DNA from: Lentisphaerota bacterium
GTDB taxonomy: Bacteria > Verrucomicrobiota > Lentisphaeria > Victivallales > Victivallaceae
Length of the DNA: 64,000 nucleotides
Assembly: GCA_015061805.1 (NCBI GenBank)
Contig: SUVV01000010.1
Location: 1-64,000, forward strand
Direction of reading: 5' to 3'
Program-made: the position numbers and the translations under genes
Part shown: positions 2,731 through 59,242 of the stretch, piece by piece
How the letters are laid out: each line of letters begins with the position of its first letter
How positions within the stretch are numbered: position 1 is the stretch's first letter
Notes under the pieces: model-generated
Database searches by the model: none
What the model saw: the letters and a program-made list of their open reading frames with translations, nothing else
Told to the model about the DNA's origin: nothing

Positions 2731-2892
2731 GCGCGAGTAAGGATATGATGATTTTATATCTCCTGTTTGCGACCAACGGGAGCAAACATATCCCGCTTTT
2801 TTTGAAAAGGGATGGGGGTTCGGGGGAAGGGAAAAACTTTTTTTCTCGTGAAAAAAAGTTTTTCCCTTCCCCCGGGCATCTCCCTTATCGGG
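2731..2892 (+). repeat. Palindromic element, copy A
   Basis: This copy has the conserved block GCGAGTAAGGATATGATG (2733-2750) and GCGACCAACGGGAGCAAAC, then CCGCTTTTTTTGAAAAGGG. Next is a 52-nt palindrome (2822-2873) with perfect 24-bp arms and a TCGT loop, and the end CCCTTATCGGG. It finishes 4 nt past the stop of the CBM9-like gene and lies antisense to it. The rightward hairpin could terminate that transcript. Confidence 0.85.
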
Positions 2893-22296: not shown

Positions 22297-23208
22297 ATGA
22301 AAAATCACAAATCATCAACCATTATCGAACTGCTGGTGGATACTGTTATCTCATCAATGTGTATTTTCAAATGCGGCGACAAACTGGAGCCGCAAAATAC
22401 TCCGCTTTTCTTGAAAAAGGGTGAGGGTTTGGGAGAGGGGAAAAACCTCTTTTCCCGTGAAAAGAAGTTTTTCCCCTCTCCCATAAAGCCTTTCACTTTA
22501 ATCGAATTGCTGGTAGTGATTGCTATCATAGCAATATTGGCAGCAATACTGCTGCCCGCTCTGCAGAGCGCCCGTGAACGCGGACGCGGAGCCAGTTGCA
22601 TCAACAATCTCAAACAGCTCGGTATGTCGTTCCAATCCTACAGCAACGAATATGACGGTTGGGCACCCAGTCCCTTCAACCAGAGCAAGGTTCCGAATTA
22701 CATCTGGTTGAACGCGCTTTACCGTACCGGTCACATTCCGGCAAAATTGTGGACACTTACTCATCCCAAAGAAAATTACGATCTCAACAAAGTTGCAGAA
22801 GCTGACCGCAAGACCACTCAAGTCCTCGCCTGTCCCTCGGCTCAATGGGAAAATATGCAGTTGCGCGGCTGGGCAAGCGGTGATCCCTCCAACTGTCAGA
22901 GTGACTACGGTGTAAATGATTATATGGGCGGTATTGAGGATGATAATATCAAACTCATGCGTAATGGCGGTTTTGCCATTAAAAGGGTGAAGAATCCTTC
23001 CCGGATCATCATGCTCACCGGTGCCAGAAACTTTGTTATCACCTCCAAAAACTGGTACAGTAATGATGCTTCGACCTATACTATCCAGTTCCGTCATAAC
23101 AAGAGCACCAATATCTGTGCAGTTGACGGCAGCGTGACCCCCTTTACTTACACCCAATCTCTCAACTTCAAAAAGAATGAAAATCTGCTCGGCGGTTACT
23201 TCAAATAA
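22297..23208 (+). CDS. Prepilin-type H-X9-DG protein with repeat-extended leader
   Basis: A 303-aa pseudopilin-like protein. The class III signal [16 protein letters not shown] starts only at residue 66 (Glu70 is the +5 Glu); the residue before the cleavage site is Pro, not the usual Gly. Residues 34-65 (from [14 protein letters not shown] through [15 protein letters not shown]) are encoded by palindromic element copy D. Residues 7-18 ([12 protein letters not shown]) look like a decayed second prepilin start. The C-terminal [13 protein letters not shown] fits the H-X9-DG motif of Lentisphaerae/Planctomycetes pseudopilins. AGGAG precedes the ATG. It likely heads an operon with the heparinase and glycosidase genes; its role at the cell envelope is inferred. 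Confidence 0.82.
22399..22502 (+). repeat. Palindromic element, copy D (inside a prepilin gene)
   Basis: The 52-nt palindrome is at 22431-22482 (24-bp arms with one mismatch, loop CCGT). It is preceded by CCGCTTTTCTTGAAAAAGGG and followed by ATAAAGCCTTTCACTTTAAT, which leads into the prepilin signal codons. It is the exact reverse complement of copy E over all 52 nt. The insertion is in frame. Confidence 0.85.
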
Positions 23209-26776: not shown

Positions 26777-26940
26777 CCCGATAAGGGGAATGCATTGTGG
26801 GGGAAGGGAAAAACTTTTTTTCCCGGGAAAAAAAGTTTTTCCCTTCCCCCACACCCCCATCCCTTTTCAAAAAAAGCGGGGTATGTTTGCTCCCGTTGGT
26901 CGCAAACAGGAGATATAAAATCATCATATCCTTACTCGCG
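26777..26940 (-). repeat. Palindromic element, copy B
   Basis: Starting at the outer end, CCCGATAAGGGG is followed by a perfect 52-bp palindrome (26799-26850, centre CCCGGG). Then come CCCTTTTCAAAAAAAGCGGG and the conserved block through TTACTCGCG. It lies antisense to, and just downstream of, the secreted glycosidase-like gene. In this copy the arms pair completely with no loop mismatch. Confidence 0.88.
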
Positions 26941-27040
26941 TAAGCAAGCGCTTCATGTTTGCCACTGGCAAACACTTCACTTTGACTTTTTAAAAACTTG
27001 AACGGCATTTATCTATTTGCAAAGCAAATAGATAAATGCC
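26941..27040. repeat. Small-hairpin cluster between element copies B and G
   Basis: Hairpin GTTTGCC-act-GGCAAAC (26957-26973) is flanked by CTTCA spacers, the complement of the TGAAG spacers seen at 48441-48516. A longer perfect hairpin has 17-bp arms and loop AAA (27004-27040, starting GGCATTTATC). No coding sequence is supported here. Confidence 0.75.
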
Positions 27041-46932: not shown

Positions 46933-48225
46933 TCAGCCGTTTATTTCATTGACGTCGGCGCCGATCATCCGCAGTTTTTCCGGCAGTTGTTCATAACCGC
47001 GATAGATGATATCGGCCTGATCGATGCGGCTTTCACCTTTGGCGGCGAGAGCGGCGATCACCATTGCCATACCGGCACGGATATCAGGGCTGGACATATT
47101 GATACCGTGGAGCTGAGCTCTGCCGGTGATGACCACGCGGTGCGGGTCGCAGACGATGGCATTGGCGCCCATGCTGATCAGGCGGTCAGCGAAATATATG
47201 CGGCTTTCAAACATTTTTTCAAAGAACATCACAGTTCCCTGACATTGGGTGGCGGCAACGATGGTGCAGCTCATCATATCTGATGGATATTGGGGCCATG
47301 GTGCATCGGATATCTGGGGGATGTGTCCGCCGAAGTCGGTGATGATGGTCCTGGAACTGTTCGCAGGAATATGGATAAGGTCTGGCTGGAGAGTCATGTT
47401 GATACCCAGCCGGTCGACGAATACGCGCCGGAGCATCCAGTAGTTTCTGGCGGCGCCGGTACCGCGGAGAGTGAGTTCAGTGTTGGTAGCTGCGGCGAGG
47501 GCGATGAAACTTCCGGCTTCGATATGATCGCCTCCGATGGTGTATTCACAACCGTGGAGTTTTTCCACGCCGTCGATGATAATAGTGTTGCTGCCGATAC
47601 CGGAAATTTTGGCACCCATTTTTTTGAGCAGTTCTGCCAGATCGCAGACATGAGGTTCGCAGGCGGCGTTACAGAGAATAGTTCTGCCTTTGGCGGTAGC
47701 TGCGGCGATAATGATCTGCTCAGTGGCGGTAACGCTGGCTTCATCGAGAAAGAGTTCCCGTCCGGTAAGACCGTCAGGAGCATTGAATTTGTAAGTTTGG
47801 GTTTCCGGAGACATATCGGCACCGAGTTTGGTAAGTCCGTAGAAGTGCCCGTCCAAGCGCCGTCTGCCGATGACGTCGCCGCCGGGTGGATAGAGTTCAG
47901 CTTTGCCGCAGCGTGCCACCAAAGATGCGGTAAAGAGGATGCTGGTACGGTTGCGCGAACAGAGTTCTCTGGAAATGGTGGTGGTTTTGATTTTTGAACA
48001 GCGGAAAGTCAGGGTACTGTTTTCAAAGGTGTATTCAGCGCCGAGTTCACCTGCGATATCCAGCATGGTGCGGACATCGAGAATATCCGGAATATTGTGC
48101 AATACCACCTCTTCATCGGTGAGCATTATTGCTGAAATTGCCGGCAATGCGGCATTTTTATTACCGGAAATTCTAACTTCACCGCCGGTAACGGATTCTC
48201 CTTTGATGATCAGACTGTGTGCCAT
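46933..48225 (-). CDS. murA: UDP-GlcNAc 1-carboxyvinyltransferase (Asp-type)
   Basis: First committed step of peptidoglycan synthesis: enolpyruvyl transfer to UDP-GlcNAc. The 430-aa protein has the EPSP-synthase-like fold with SGNKNAALP (Lys23), YPPGGDVIGRRRLD and YPSDMM. The residue corresponding to E. coli Cys115 is Asp117. The same substitution is known in Mycobacterium and Chlamydia MurA, which are intrinsically resistant to fosfomycin. The start MAHSLIIKGE is natural. It is the first gene of a murA-histidine kinase operon. Confidence 0.94.
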   Translation of the reverse strand: MAHSLIIKGESVTGGEVRISGNKNAALPAISAIMLTDEEVVLHNIPDILDVRTMLDIAGELGAEYTFENSTLTFRCSKIKTTTISRELCSRNRTSILFTASLVARCGKAELYPPGGDVIGRRRLDGHFYGLTKLGADMSPETQTYKFNAPDGLTGRELFLDEASVTATEQIIIAAATAKGRTILCNAACEPHVCDLAELLKKMGAKISGIGSNTIIIDGVEKLHGCEYTIGGDHIEAGSFIALAAATNTELTLRGTGAARNYWMLRRVFVDRLGINMTLQPDLIHIPANSSRTIITDFGGHIPQISDAPWPQYPSDMMSCTIVAATQCQGTVMFFEKMFESRIYFADRLISMGANAIVCDPHRVVITGRAQLHGINMSSPDIRAGMAMVIAALAAKGESRIDQADIIYRGYEQLPEKLRMIGADVNEING

Positions 48226-48360: not shown

Positions 48361-48412
48361 TGCCGCGACCATCCGCCGTCGCACAAGGCTATGGCGCGAC
48401 AAGCGGAGCGGC
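48361..48412. repeat. Nested palindromic unit N1
   Basis: ACCATCCGCCGTCGC is followed by GGCGCGACAAG, with nested pairings TGCCGC/GCGGCA, CCGC/GCGG and GTCGC/GCGAC. A second version, N2, starts ACCATCCGCCGTCGCTCAGG (from about 48566) and is inserted within element copy C. Confidence 0.65.
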
Positions 48413-48419
48413 ATTTGTG

Positions 48420-48530
48420 TTGGTTTGCGCATCAAACCAACGTGAAGCGCAGGATAAATCCTGCATGAAGCATTGCTTCGCAATGTGAAGCGTTTGCCTT
48501 TGGCAAACATGAAGCGCTCGCTTACGCGAG
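48420..48530. repeat. Array of five unlike hairpins with TGAAGC spacers
   Basis: Five perfect small hairpins: TTGGTTTG-cgcat-CAAACCAA (48420-48440), GCAGGAT-aa-ATCCTGC (48449-48464), CATTGC-ttc-GCAATG (48471-48485), GTTTGCC-ttt-GGCAAAC (48492-48508) and CTCGC-ttac-GCGAG (48517-48530). They are unrelated in sequence, but the spacers are CGTGAAGC, ATGAAG, TGAAGC and ATGAAGCG. The fourth hairpin recurs near copy B at 26957-26973 with a changed loop. Confidence 0.85.
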
Positions 48531-48688
48531 TCAAGGATATGATGATTTTATATCTCCTGTTTGCTACCATCCGCCGTCGCTCAGGGAGCTGTGGCGGGAC
48601 AAGTCGGGAGCAAACATATCCCGCTTTTTTTGAAAAGGGATGAGGGTTTGGGAGAAGGGAAACCTTCCCTTCTCCCAAGTATCACCCA
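48531..48688 (+). repeat. Palindromic element, copy C (with nested N2)
   Basis: This copy has AAGGATATGATGATTTTATA, a nested N2 insertion, GGGAGCAAACATATCCCGC, then a shortened palindrome (48650-48676, 12-bp perfect arms starting GGGAGAAGGGAA). It ends at the stop codon of the DUF4838 gene and lies antisense to it. Confidence 0.8.
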
Positions 48689-51121
48689 TTATTTTTTCGG
48701 GATAAGCAGCAGTTCCATTTCGTCGATATTGATTTTGACCGGAGTCTTGCTGCAGTTTTTGAATTCGACTTTGAACGACTGATTTCCGGCGGGAATAGCG
48801 GTCTGTTTGAAGCGGACTTCATACCACTGCTGATCCCGGTTGAGTTCGCGCGGCAGGACGACCATCGGGAGTTCTTTGCCGCCGAGAGTGACCTTCATCA
48901 GTTTGGCAGGGTCACACGGAGATTTAACGAACATCCGCATTACGGCAGTCTGCGCGGTTTTCGGTGCGATCTGCCGGGTATTGATCAGTACGGCGCTGCT
49001 GTTGGCGCCGAGTTTGATCATAGCGCTGCGGCCCTGAGCGTTGTGATATTGAGCCATCAGATTGCCCGCCGGGTCAAAGTTGACGGCGCTGGTGGTTTCA
49101 AAAGAGCTTTCTCCGGCAGTTTTTTTCCAATCCCAACAGTAGGAATAGTATTCAAAAGATCCGTTGACCAGATAGTTGAACTGGTTGGTATTGAGTTGGG
49201 TGGTGACAAATTCGGAGATGGTTTTCCACGGGCGCAGACGCAGGGATTCGGAACGGAAAACATCGCGGCCGAGCGCATTGTCTGCGGAATACTTCAACAG
49301 GAATCTCAAACGTTTATCGGCATTTTTATAGGCAGTTCCGGCGAGTTTGAGCAGGTTTTCTTTTTCCATGACGACCGCTTCGGCATCCGGTTGGGTAAGC
49401 GGCATATTGACACCGGCGGCGGCGAGTTTGGCGAAACCTTCCATGGCATCGGCGTTGATGGTGCAGTGTTCGATACCGAGTTTGATATAGGCGATCCTGG
49501 CTTTGTGTTCCGGTGTGGCGGCGAATTTGTTGGCTTTCCAGAGATACCGGTTGCACATTTTCCGGAAATCCTGACCGTAATACTTGCGGAAAAAGCGGAT
49601 GCGTTCGGCGTAGACATTAGGATAGTGTTTGAAGACATCACCATTTTCGGTGTTGTCTTTTTGCATCACCATTTCGGTATAATCTTCGATTTTTTCAAAC
49701 ATATCGTACATCACCTTTGCCGACTTTTTGCCGAAGGCCTTTTCGCAGAAGTCCATCAGCAGCGCTTCGCGCTTCAGCGTGGGATCCCAGGAGAGGCGGG
49801 CGAGGATGTAAAGGTCGCTGGCGCGCGGGGCGAAAGCATTACCGGTTTCGCCGTAGACACCGGCGGCATTGGCGCGGTGGAGCAGTTTCAAATTGCGGTC
49901 GATCCGGCGGCTGTGGGAAACCGGAAGATCGAGCCAGTAGTGACATCCCCAGTATTCACGTCCGATGACTCTGGCGCCGGTTTTGCTCAGACCGAGGAGA
50001 GTTTCTTCGAGCTGCTTTTCGGCTTCTTTGCTCATGCCGAGCACCTGATAACAGAAAGAGAGGTACATATTTCCGGGGAACTTCACATCCACGGTTGGAA
50101 CTTTGTTATACAGTGAATAAGCAAACATACCGATTTTGGCATTGGGATCAGCCTTGTAGACCTGATTGGCGATGTCGGCAGCAAAACGGTACATGCGGTT
50201 GGTCAGGTTGGTATTTTTGGCACCGAGCCACGGAGTGTCGCCGTCATCTTTCCGGCAGTTGTCACATTCGCAGAATCCATAACCGTCATTGGGGGAGATG
50301 CTCTGGACTTTGGTGGTTTTGGCATCGATGATCTTTTGGGCGATCAGGCGGCGGACATCGGGATTTGAGGTACAGAACTGCCATGCGCCGTCATTGAAAA
50401 CGGTACGGGCGGCAGTTTCCGGTTTGTTGATACCGATCCAGTTTCCGGCTGTGACGAGAGAGTAGTATTCCGGGTGATCTTTGCCGTAGACACTCTGCGG
50501 CAGAAGCCGGGAAAAGGCGTGGGAAAAGGAACCGATAACGGTGGTTCCGACCTTGTGGTGATCGAGCCAGGAGTCGAGATCTTTCACCGCCTGATCGTCC
50601 ATGTAACTTTTGCCGTAGTGGAAAGATGAGGTCAGGCGCTGGTCGAATGGGGGAATATAGGTTGAAACTCCGTTTTTGACAGTATCGGCAGAACGTTTTT
50701 CAACCACGGTACCGGTTTCGCCGGGCCAGAGCCAGCGGACACCGCAAACATCCTGCAGAAAATCGTACATGGCGAAACGGCTGCCCTGAAGTTTCAGTTT
50801 TCTGTCATCGTTGCCGAAGATGAAGAGCCGTTGATCATCGGCATAACGTCCGATGTAGAGCCGTTTTGCCGGAACTTCAAGTTTAAGATCAGCAGGAACA
50901 ATGCCGATATAGATTCCCGGGGCGTCACTTTTGCCATTGTACTTAGCAGTGGAATAATTTTTACCGTAGATCCGGTTCAAGTATCCTGCCAATTCACCGG
51001 CGGCATTTTGATACTGTTTGGAATAATAAATGACGGCATCTGCTTTACCGATTTCAAAACTGTATACGCAAAATGCGAATACTGAAGCAAGATACAATAA
51101 AACTGTTTTTGTGATTTTCAT
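48689..51121 (-). CDS. Secreted DUF4838 glycosidase-like protein
   Basis: An 810-aa exported protein with signal peptide MKITKTVLLYLASVFAFCVYS. The N-terminal region (about 20-150) resembles the alpha-glucuronidase/hexosaminidase N-terminal fold (GRYADDQRLFIFGND, YDFLQDVCGVRWLWPGETG). The DUF4838 core follows with SISPNDGYGFCECDNCRK, a Cys-rich hallmark. The C-terminal 190 residues form a probable carbohydrate-binding beta-sandwich. Such proteins are abundant in polysaccharide-degrading Lentisphaerae and Bacteroidetes; substrate unknown. GAGAGGG precedes the start. It lies 49 nt after a prepilin-type gene, behind a cobalamin riboswitch. Confidence 0.78.
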   Translation of the reverse strand: MKITKTVLLYLASVFAFCVYSFEIGKADAVIYYSKQYQNAAGELAGYLNRIYGKNYSTAKYNGKSDAPGIYIGIVPADLKLEVPAKRLYIGRYADDQRLFIFGNDDRKLKLQGSRFAMYDFLQDVCGVRWLWPGETGTVVEKRSADTVKNGVSTYIPPFDQRLTSSFHYGKSYMDDQAVKDLDSWLDHHKVGTTVIGSFSHAFSRLLPQSVYGKDHPEYYSLVTAGNWIGINKPETAARTVFNDGAWQFCTSNPDVRRLIAQKIIDAKTTKVQSISPNDGYGFCECDNCRKDDGDTPWLGAKNTNLTNRMYRFAADIANQVYKADPNAKIGMFAYSLYNKVPTVDVKFPGNMYLSFCYQVLGMSKEAEKQLEETLLGLSKTGARVIGREYWGCHYWLDLPVSHSRRIDRNLKLLHRANAAGVYGETGNAFAPRASDLYILARLSWDPTLKREALLMDFCEKAFGKKSAKVMYDMFEKIEDYTEMVMQKDNTENGDVFKHYPNVYAERIRFFRKYYGQDFRKMCNRYLWKANKFAATPEHKARIAYIKLGIEHCTINADAMEGFAKLAAAGVNMPLTQPDAEAVVMEKENLLKLAGTAYKNADKRLRFLLKYSADNALGRDVFRSESLRLRPWKTISEFVTTQLNTNQFNYLVNGSFEYYSYCWDWKKTAGESSFETTSAVNFDPAGNLMAQYHNAQGRSAMIKLGANSSAVLINTRQIAPKTAQTAVMRMFVKSPCDPAKLMKVTLGGKELPMVVLPRELNRDQQWYEVRFKQTAIPAGNQSFKVEFKNCSKTPVKINIDEMELLLIPKK

Positions 51122-51170: not shown

Positions 51171-52106
51171 TCACCATGCTTTCCAGAAGTTGTTGTAGCG
51201 GCTTAGAACAGCCTTATCTGAAGAGCTGCGATCGGCATAAGGCGGAATGTCACGCAGCAAAATATCACTGGCATGTCCGTCTGCATAGGTCAGATTTGCT
51301 TTTTTCATATGCCGGAAACCGATATAATTCAGTCCGGTGACGTGAGTACGGATTTCGTTGTCGCCATCACCTCCGCTATCCAATCCGGTTCCTTCAATAA
51401 GTATCGGCGCTTTAGAGGTATATTTGATTTTGTTGAGTTTAGGTGCAAAATCCAAACCATTGCTGCCTGATTTAGCTGAAACAAATCTGATCCAGGAAAT
51501 CGAGTTGGAAGAATTCACTCCTCCGGAGTAAGTCCGGCGCGTACAGCCGGCATAGATCGGATTGGAACCGTATTTCATATCACCTTTAGCCGCCGGCATA
51601 TTTGGAGATATATATTGTGCGGTCAATTCCCAGTGATATTCATAAGGAAAACTTAAACTTTTTCTTCTTACATAGGGAAAGTAATCATCGTTATCATTAG
51701 TATACATCAAATGGTACGCCATATACTGCTTCAGATTGTTCGAACAACTGGAAGATTGTCCGCGGGCCCGTGCATTCTGCAGTGCCGGCAGCAGCATGGC
51801 AGCCAGAATTGCTATGATCGCGATAACCACCAGCAGTTCTATTAAAGTGAAAGGCTTTATGGGAGAGGGGAAAAACTTCTTTTCACGGGAAAAGAGGTTT
51901 TTCCCCTCTCCCAAACCCTCTCCCCTTTTCAAGAAAAGCGGGGTATTTTTAAGAGATTCGATCAAGCCCGACCAACGGGATGGGCGCGACACTCCCGAGG
52001 CGGCACGTTTGCCGCTCAAGAAAAGCGGAGCATTTTGCGGCTTCCGTTGGTCGCCGCCGGATTCCGGCATCAATGATCGATGCCCCGAAAAGGTAAAGTA
52101 CGCCAT
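51171..52106 (-). CDS. Prepilin-type H-X9-DG protein with double repeat leader
   Basis: A 311-aa pseudopilin-like protein. [16 protein letters not shown] begins at residue 86 (Glu90 is the +5 Glu), again after Pro instead of Gly. The 85-residue leader contains two related segments: [11 protein letters not shown] (24-34) and [17 protein letters not shown] (54-70), the latter continuing [12 protein letters not shown] as in the other prepilin gene. The C-terminal [16 protein letters not shown] fits H-X9-DG. GAAAGGA lies 6 nt before the ATG, supporting the long leader as real. It is the first gene behind the cobalamin riboswitch and heads the operon with the DUF4838 gene. Confidence 0.82.
51841..51946 (-). 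repeat. Palindromic element, copy E (inside a prepilin gene)
   Basis: The 52-nt palindrome (51861-51912) equals the reverse complement of copy D base for base. Flanks also match: ATTAAAGTGAAAGGCTTTAT on one side and CCCTTTTCAAGAAAAGCGGG on the other. Beyond the flanks, the two prepilin genes differ at many synonymous positions. Confidence 0.85.
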
Positions 52107-59072: not shown

Positions 59073-59220
59073 CCTGTCGTTGGGCTGAAGCCCAACAGGC
59101 GAAAAGTTATGCCGCGACATCGGAGCGGCAAAACACCCCCGCTTTTTTCGAAAGGGGTGGGGTGTGGGGAGGGGAAAAACTTTTTTTCTCGTGAAAAAAG
59201 GTTTTCCCCTCCCACAATAC
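59073..59220 (+). repeat. Palindromic element, copy F, with adjacent hairpin
   Basis: Hairpin GCCTGT/ACAGGC with inner TTGGGC/GCCCAA lies at 59073-59100. Then comes CCCCGCTTTTTTCGAAAGGGG and a 52-nt palindrome at 59164-59215 (arms beginning GTGGGGAGGGGAAAA, one indel), followed by CATCTCCCCCTTGTCGGG. It is downstream of the FKBP gene, antisense to it. Confidence 0.75.
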
Positions 59221-59242
59221 CATCTCCCCCTTGTCGGGACAC

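Follow-up and report, generated by a model that had tools for sequence, protein, structure and literature searches.

The GTAG and CGTC families of REP sequences are short stem-loops that carry a constant unpaired tag at one end, with stems of 5-9 bp and loops of a few bases; their stems come in alternative complementary versions, their copies are many, and they lie both between genes and within ORFs (PMC3733652). CGTC-type REPs occur without a dedicated transposase, and head-to-tail dimers are absent or under-represented in the GTAG families and negligible in the CGTC families (PMC3733652). REPINs consist of two REPs in inverted orientation and have a cognate RAYT; they are non-autonomous and are thought to move via single-stranded hairpins (PMC3116915). 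RPEs are single stem-loops of 105-146 bp that lie in frame in many different proteins and also between genes (PMC2229807), and PARCELs, palindromic sequences that spread inside genomes and code for amino-acid repeats, form tandem domains of 25-residue repeats in ORFs, of which some are expressed in surface lipoproteins (PMC2996958). Palindromic repeats with a tag are thus already known, and so are those that lie in frame inside genes (PMC3733652, PMC2229807).

The array that we describe here is a chain of hairpins joined by TGAAGC, found in a 64,000-nt window (the whole stretch of DNA that was analysed) of a Lentisphaerota bacterium. It resembles the GTAG/CGTC REPs in its short tagged stem-loops and its many genomic copies, but its tag is the 6-nt TGAAGC and not a terminal GTAG/CGTC tetranucleotide, its hairpins stand in fixed-order head-to-tail modules and not in the head-to-head or tail-to-tail dimers that predominate among these REPs, and, unlike REPs, the in-ORF copies of its family go to a single codon site in a single gene family (PMC3733652). 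With REPINs it would have in common that both are non-autonomous palindromic DNA that moves by way of single-stranded hairpins, although the array runs head to tail and no cognate RAYT was found for it (PMC3116915). GTAG REPs and REPINs have a cognate RAYT flanked by the repeat, whereas none was found with the TGAAGC arrays of these incomplete MAGs. A literature search, with subscription journals mostly outside it, returned neither a TGAAGC tag, nor such head-to-tail modules, nor palindromic inserts in prepilin leaders. Below, window-type arrays are called class A, arrays in prepilin genes class P, and arrays after tRNA genes class T.

The array and the module it belongs to

The array and its surroundings comprise the following features.

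46933-48225, minus strand: aroA (EPSP synthase)
48419..48441, plus strand: hairpin H1, 9-bp stem GTTGGTTTG/CAAACCAAC, the longest stem and the end of the module
48449..48464, plus strand: hairpin H2, 6-bp stem GCAGGA/TCCTGC (a GCCGGGA-type stem in sister species G035)
48472..48484, plus strand: hairpin H3, 5-bp stem ATTGC/GCAAT, loop GAA on the GCTTCA strand
48492..48508, plus strand: hairpin H4, 7-bp stem GTTTGCC/GGCAAAC, with a homologous unit in pilin-leader arrays too
48517..48530, plus strand: hairpin H5, 5-bp stem CTCGC/GCGAG
48443, 48466, 48486 and 48510 (span 48443..48515), plus strand: four TGAAGC linkers, in spacers of 7, 7, 7 and 8 nt
48533..48564, plus strand: module tail AAGGATATGATGATTTTATATCTCCTGTTTGC, with other exact copies at 2739-2770 (plus) and 26902-26933 (minus)
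48605..48662, plus strand: flanking palindromic repeat D2, a terminator-like stem and then a T run (by eye; unlisted in the terminator scan)
48689-51121, minus strand: DUF4838 gene

Five perfect hairpins, the number given in the initial annotation, occupy 48419-48530, and they measure 13-23 nt and not 14-21 nt; the tag does stand in every one of the four spacers. All five units are oriented head to tail, and the array lies between aroA and the DUF4838 gene, both on the minus strand. When perfect hairpins with 5-10-nt spacers are chained, a chain of five is unique to the array in the window, and the longest chain in 20 windows simulated from the same dinucleotide chain was two (18 times) or three (twice). 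The tag pattern alone, TGAAGC-N10-30-TGAAG, is weakly unusual in the window (4 matches, a number reached by 3 of 100 shuffles); what makes the array improbable is the presence of hairpins between one tag and the next.

A 129-base array query found 52 matches in the array's own 2.29-Mb genome, and a 291-base query found 100, many of which are pieces of flank. Most of the 20 genomic stretches inspected have the same hairpins in the same order, and the module is often amplified in tandem, at intervals of about 126-177 bp; 45 distinct complete five-hairpin modules (34 from the own genome, 11 from four sister species) keep that order fixed. The array is one copy of a whole ordered module, and it is the module that repeats, not the single hairpin. 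Arrays of this kind thus do occur elsewhere in the genome, and the initial idea that units are copied stands, but not as a matter of independent units: hairpin content and hairpin order are shared by the 34 distinct complete modules found in the own genome.

The own genome has 84+79 occurrences of the pattern TGAAGC-N10-30-TGAAGC and 4+6 of the reversed pattern. Among the 78 family genomes scanned, the same-pattern enrichment is strong in many genus genomes, though not in all: G044 has 111+105 against 1+5, a count inflated by a coding-like 24-nt TGAAGC tandem repeat outside the hairpin family (G044:C64 1464-1661), whereas G029 has 5+2 against 10+14. The window module matches 20 of 34 genus genomes and has no match in the other 14. 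In genome contigs at large, a triple-TGAAGC pattern returned at least 117 stretches; most of the titles among the matches listed name unrelated phyla, and judging from those titles we take such stretches to be probable chance matches. The one stretch that was inspected, L146 from a Lentisphaeria MAG, does bear an array like the one in the window. Among viral contigs, two exact hairpin-unit patterns had 0 matches each.

Of the 105 different units that lie between tags in the genus loci, 61 can form a perfect stem of 5 bp or longer; after shuffling, the mean number that can do so is 1.1 and the maximum 3. The stems change on both sides across copies and species, as compared in 44 arrays of class A and 22 of class P. 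For instance, pair 4 of H5 is A-T or G-C and pair 5 of H1 is G-C or A-T, while H4 alternates between G-C and A-T and between G-C and T-A, and H2 between A-T and C-G and between A-T and G-C. Since the stems covary between copies and sister species, the palindromes are maintained.

It had been suggested that the array inverts the logic of CRISPR, and an integron-like cassette array would look much the same: a short constant part, a variable part, a head-to-tail series and, in the prepilin genes considered below, inserts in series. Yet a CRISPR joins a constant repeat to ever-changing spacers, and here identical units recur in the same order genome-wide, while none of 34 genomes has an integron integrase above the TIGR02249 cut-off, the matches to that model being ordinary tyrosine recombinases of the sort seen in all 14 control genomes. 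Contradicted by the fixed unit order and by the lack of an integrase above the cut-off in those 34 genomes, both versions of this idea deserve next to no credence.

Two further parts of the module lie in the window.

26934..26984, minus strand: truncated module copy (H4, H5 and tail), adjoining repeats D2 and D1
2731..2873, plus strand: module remnant (end of H5, tail, D2 and D1), 300 bp past three tRNA genes

The GTTTGCC/GGCAAAC hairpin does recur, on the opposite strand, at 26957-26973, although its linkers are one TGAAGT and one TGAAGC and not the same pair as had been stated; because H5 and the same tail come after it, it is the H4 of a truncated inverted module. That the array adjoins another palindromic repeat in two places was also correct (26.9 and 48.6 kb). 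We note further that a 67-nt near-perfect palindrome (GGGAAGGGAAAAACTTTTTTTC...) has five copies in the window (2823-2889, 22432-22498, 26800-26866, 51862-51928 and 59166-59232), two of which form an in-frame leader within prepilin-like genes. A separate palindromic repeat, CCATCCGCCGTCGC...GACAAG, lies at 48365-48400 and 48563-48600; since the latter copy occupies the loop of a GTTTGC/GCAAAC palindrome beside the array, these repeats are nested.

Copies at gene ends

Class A clusters lie between convergent genes in 14 of 19 cases, as called by a crude ORF caller, compared with 7 convergent pairs among the 50 adjacent gene pairs of the window; the window's own array is an exception to this placement. 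The TGAAGC strand runs along the left-hand gene in 15 of the 19 intergenic clusters. At all 29 sister aroA loci the array is absent from the surrounding 500 bp (212 bp for L299), but the genes there stand in another order, and because the neighbours differ the comparison is uninformative on insertion of the window copy.

One might suppose from the convergent placement and the many copies that the array is a DNA site maintained by the host, bound by gyrase or nucleoid proteins as BIMEs are, and relieving supercoiling between convergent genes. Copy number varies strongly by species, however, down to the 14 genomes without a module match, and the insertion of class P arrays within coding sequence would be unexpected for supercoiling relief; we consider such a site very unlikely.

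In 6 of the 7 loci scanned, a class T array follows directly on a tRNA gene, with GCTTCA-tagged hairpins enclosed in a covarying outer stem (CTGAAAAGGC/GCCTTTTCAG versus CGACAGGC/GCCTGTCG, by eye). The branched outer-stem element (L032, L037, L048, L117 and L270) is found after tRNA-Ser(gct) in two species, after tRNA-Pro and after tRNA-Val, and in L037 a motif CTTGTCCGCCGTAGCC, similar to the CCATCCGCCGTCGC...GACAAG repeat, sits within a class T hairpin loop. At L037 (G000:C11) 178-530 and at L120 (G059), a second copy of the tRNA 3' end lies a few hundred bases further downstream, a small insert separating the two, and after it come a terminator and then a class T hairpin array; these duplications, at tRNA-Pro(ggg) and tRNA-Arg, look like attachment-site duplications.

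Copies within prepilin-like genes

In sister species, class P arrays lie within prepilin-like genes (PF07963) with the GCTTCA strand in sense. They are in frame and stand between two copies of a sequence coding for FTLIELLV, and their terminal hairpin, TCAATCAGCG-TTYA-CGCTGATTGA, itself provides codons for (S)AFTLIE. On the evidence of their sequences, class P and class A arrays are related: both have the tag and a five-hairpin format that ends in the longest stem, both place a hairpin of the GCTYGC type after the GTTTGCC one, and the class A tail AAGGATATGA comes after the class P array of L116 (G053). The order of hairpins is permuted in some class P copies (L113, L129 and L273 compared with L255) and is not the same between array classes, and this last difference points to some modular shuffling over a longer time scale.

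The window has prepilin-like genes of its own.

22297..23208, plus strand: prepilin-like gene with a D1/D2-type (F4) palindromic leader insert between STIIELLV and FTLIELLV; doubled
22492..22514, plus strand: right FTLIELLV-coding copy of that gene, TTCACTTTAATCGAATTGCTGGT
51171..52106, minus strand: prepilin-like gene with PF07963 at residues 86-106 and an F4-type leader; left FTLIELLV copy not recognised
51829..51851, minus strand: FTLIELLV-coding copy of that gene

The own genome has 43 prepilin-type loci, with FTLIELLV doubled in 14 and single in 26, while 3 run off a contig; of 72 such loci in G044, 29 have it doubled and 27 single, and 16 run off a contig or the end of a stretch. These are the motif-fitting loci among 48 and 137 PF07963 matches, and for G044 they come from part of the 137 (30 loci and 40 stretches). 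At least four kinds of insert are found between FTLIELLV copies, the D1/D2 palindromes that flank the window array among them, and L381 has two inserts in series with three FTLIELLV copies. By hand count, 12 among 16 hairpin clusters listed in G044 lie within 100 bp of a PF07963 match. A protein-similarity search for recent prepilin paralogues returned mainly the conserved N-terminus.

A frame-blind test started from 123 right FTLIELLV copies, 47 of which have a left copy 60-500 nt upstream; the test leaves out the other 76. In every one of the 47 doubled genes the distance is a multiple of three with no stop between, over 14 distinct lengths, and 27 of the 47 have an F2/F3-type right end. RPE-like in-frame insertion is therefore seen in class P arrays but not in the window copy, and there is a further difference: an RPE is one long stem-loop found in diverse proteins, whereas class P is a chain of small hairpins between doubled prepilin motifs in one family (PMC2229807). 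The insert lies in the prepilin leader, unlike the repeat domains that PARCELs form (PMC2996958). Between the two FTLIELLV copies themselves, the left matches host codon use and the right is invariant within each insert family as far as its end, except that two right copies (L337 and L340) are partly mosaic with host codons.

A closer comparison comes from one prepilin-like gene with orthologues in eight genomes (61-100% identity). In G055 the gene has a 231-bp class P insert, and in G048 a 95%-identical orthologue has an empty site, the flanks aligning as two blocks with a 231-bp offset and a 32-bp overlap; species thus differ by gain or loss at the one site compared, a comparison of the kind that the initial annotation proposed for strains. 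By hand count, the 36-bp direct repeats around the G055 insert match each other at 31 of 36 bases; when the G048 empty site is set against them, 34 of 36 bases agree for the left copy and 33 for the right. A MITE would have terminal inverted repeats and a short target duplication; here no terminal inverted repeat is visible by eye, and the 36-bp repeats could be target or element sequence. As for the other orthologues, the G037 leader is of another palindromic type, G050 and the own genome have F4 (the own gene being cut by a contig end), G044 has an F3 insert after an apparently decayed class P array, and G038 and G033 have no insert. Taken together, these alleles show turnover of inserts at one prepilin site, and the G048 site could be either virgin or healed, by loss through recombination between the 36-bp direct repeats.

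An alternative is that nothing here transposes: ectopic recombination and slippage might do all the work, leader inserts being swapped or lost between prepilin paralogues through their shared codons, and intergenic arrays being amplified in tandem. The partly mosaic right copies of L337 and L340, the direct repeats around the G055 insert, the tandem arrays and the serial inserts of L381 would all fit. We nevertheless find it doubtful, because genes that share an insert family are unrelated upstream of the left copy, so that every case would call for a pair of crossovers within short and diverged repeats, and because it would leave unexplained how copies reached convergent intergenic sites whose flanks are unrelated.

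A different possibility is that the arrays are cis-acting RNA elements which spread as useful, either as hairpins in 3' UTRs, acting against 3'-5' decay or for termination, or in prepilin mRNA leaders, tuning translation. The 121-nt array stretch folds strongly as RNA (z = -4.0 and -4.6 against shuffles for the two strands), the arrays come after genes, mostly convergent ones, their stems covary, and a repeat that is terminator-like by eye adjoins the window array. As DNA the two strands likewise fold far better than shuffles (z = -4.5 and -4.8). Yet while in the RNA fold H3 is partly paired with linkers, the GCTTCA strand as DNA forms all five hairpins separately, in the minimum-energy and in the centroid structure alike. 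Moreover, the hairpins would have to work from one strand in one setting and from the other in the next, the TGAAGC strand between genes (15 of 19 clusters) and the GCTTCA strand in prepilin mRNA, and tRNAs are the sole Rfam matches in the window. An RNA role of this sort seems to us unlikely.

A putative mobile palindromic element

We favour, with moderate confidence, the reading that the array is a non-autonomous palindromic element, similar to REPs and RPEs, which consists of hairpins and a tag and is tolerated at gene ends and in prepilin leaders. DNA is what the two settings have in common, since the left-hand gene runs along the TGAAGC strand in 15 of the 19 intergenic clusters whereas prepilin genes are transcribed along the GCTTCA strand, and this, with the folding of the GCTTCA strand as DNA into five separate hairpins, argues for an element acting as folded single-stranded DNA, a mode proposed for REPs and REPINs too (PMC3733652, PMC3116915). 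Five hairpins that share one single-stranded tag (TGAAGC / GCTTCA) would be copied as a preassembled head-to-tail module, moving as folded single strands that are recognised by hairpin and tag; its mobility is suggested by comparison of sequences. Copies would persist where insertion is cheap, that is, at the 3' ends of genes here and in the prepilin leader in sister species. The prepilin leader is removed by prepilin peptidase, and where the leader carries an insert, cleavage would fall at the FTLIE site, which the element restores with its last hairpin.

More tentatively, we speculate that the element family may be specialised on the FTLIELLV codon site of an expanded prepilin family, bringing its own FTLIE hairpin as a replacement, and that the window array may be an intergenic offshoot. 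Insertion at the FTLIELLV codons would stay open and in frame, the insert would be discarded with the leader, and the mature protein would be restored because the element brings its own FTLIE-coding hairpin; the GCTTCA tag itself may derive from (S)F-T codons (xGC TTC ACN). Read in this codon-site-specific way, the family would do in protein genes what certain integrative elements do in tRNA genes, whose end they restore.

If the element reading is right, it would add a third, differently tagged class of short bacterial palindromic repeats, in a poorly studied gut phylum, and a clear case of selfish palindromic DNA hidden in protein genes at a point where the translated product should be discarded. 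With many insert and empty alleles at one codon site, insertion, loss and selection would be directly countable. There is also a warning for annotation, in that long prepilin-like N-termini in this genus are repeats at which contigs break: many contig ends in the own genome and G044 lie inside prepilin leader repeats, which therefore probably fragment MAG assemblies.

As to what might move the element, a REP-associated tyrosine transposase had been proposed, and the Y1_Tnp matches of the own genome and the family, being unlinked to the array, speak against it. The sole PF01797 (Y1_Tnp) match of the own genome, L031 (G000:C29 20906-21220), contains one TGA and two TAA, and the Y1_Tnp loci inspected in sister species, all incomplete MAGs, have no TGAAGC array alongside. 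Because the genomes are incomplete, the mover may lie in an unassembled part. The intact g1 copies of Y1_Tnp resemble IS200-type elements with end hairpins of their own, and G040 (L084) has an intact relative of the broken, IS200-like L031 gene.
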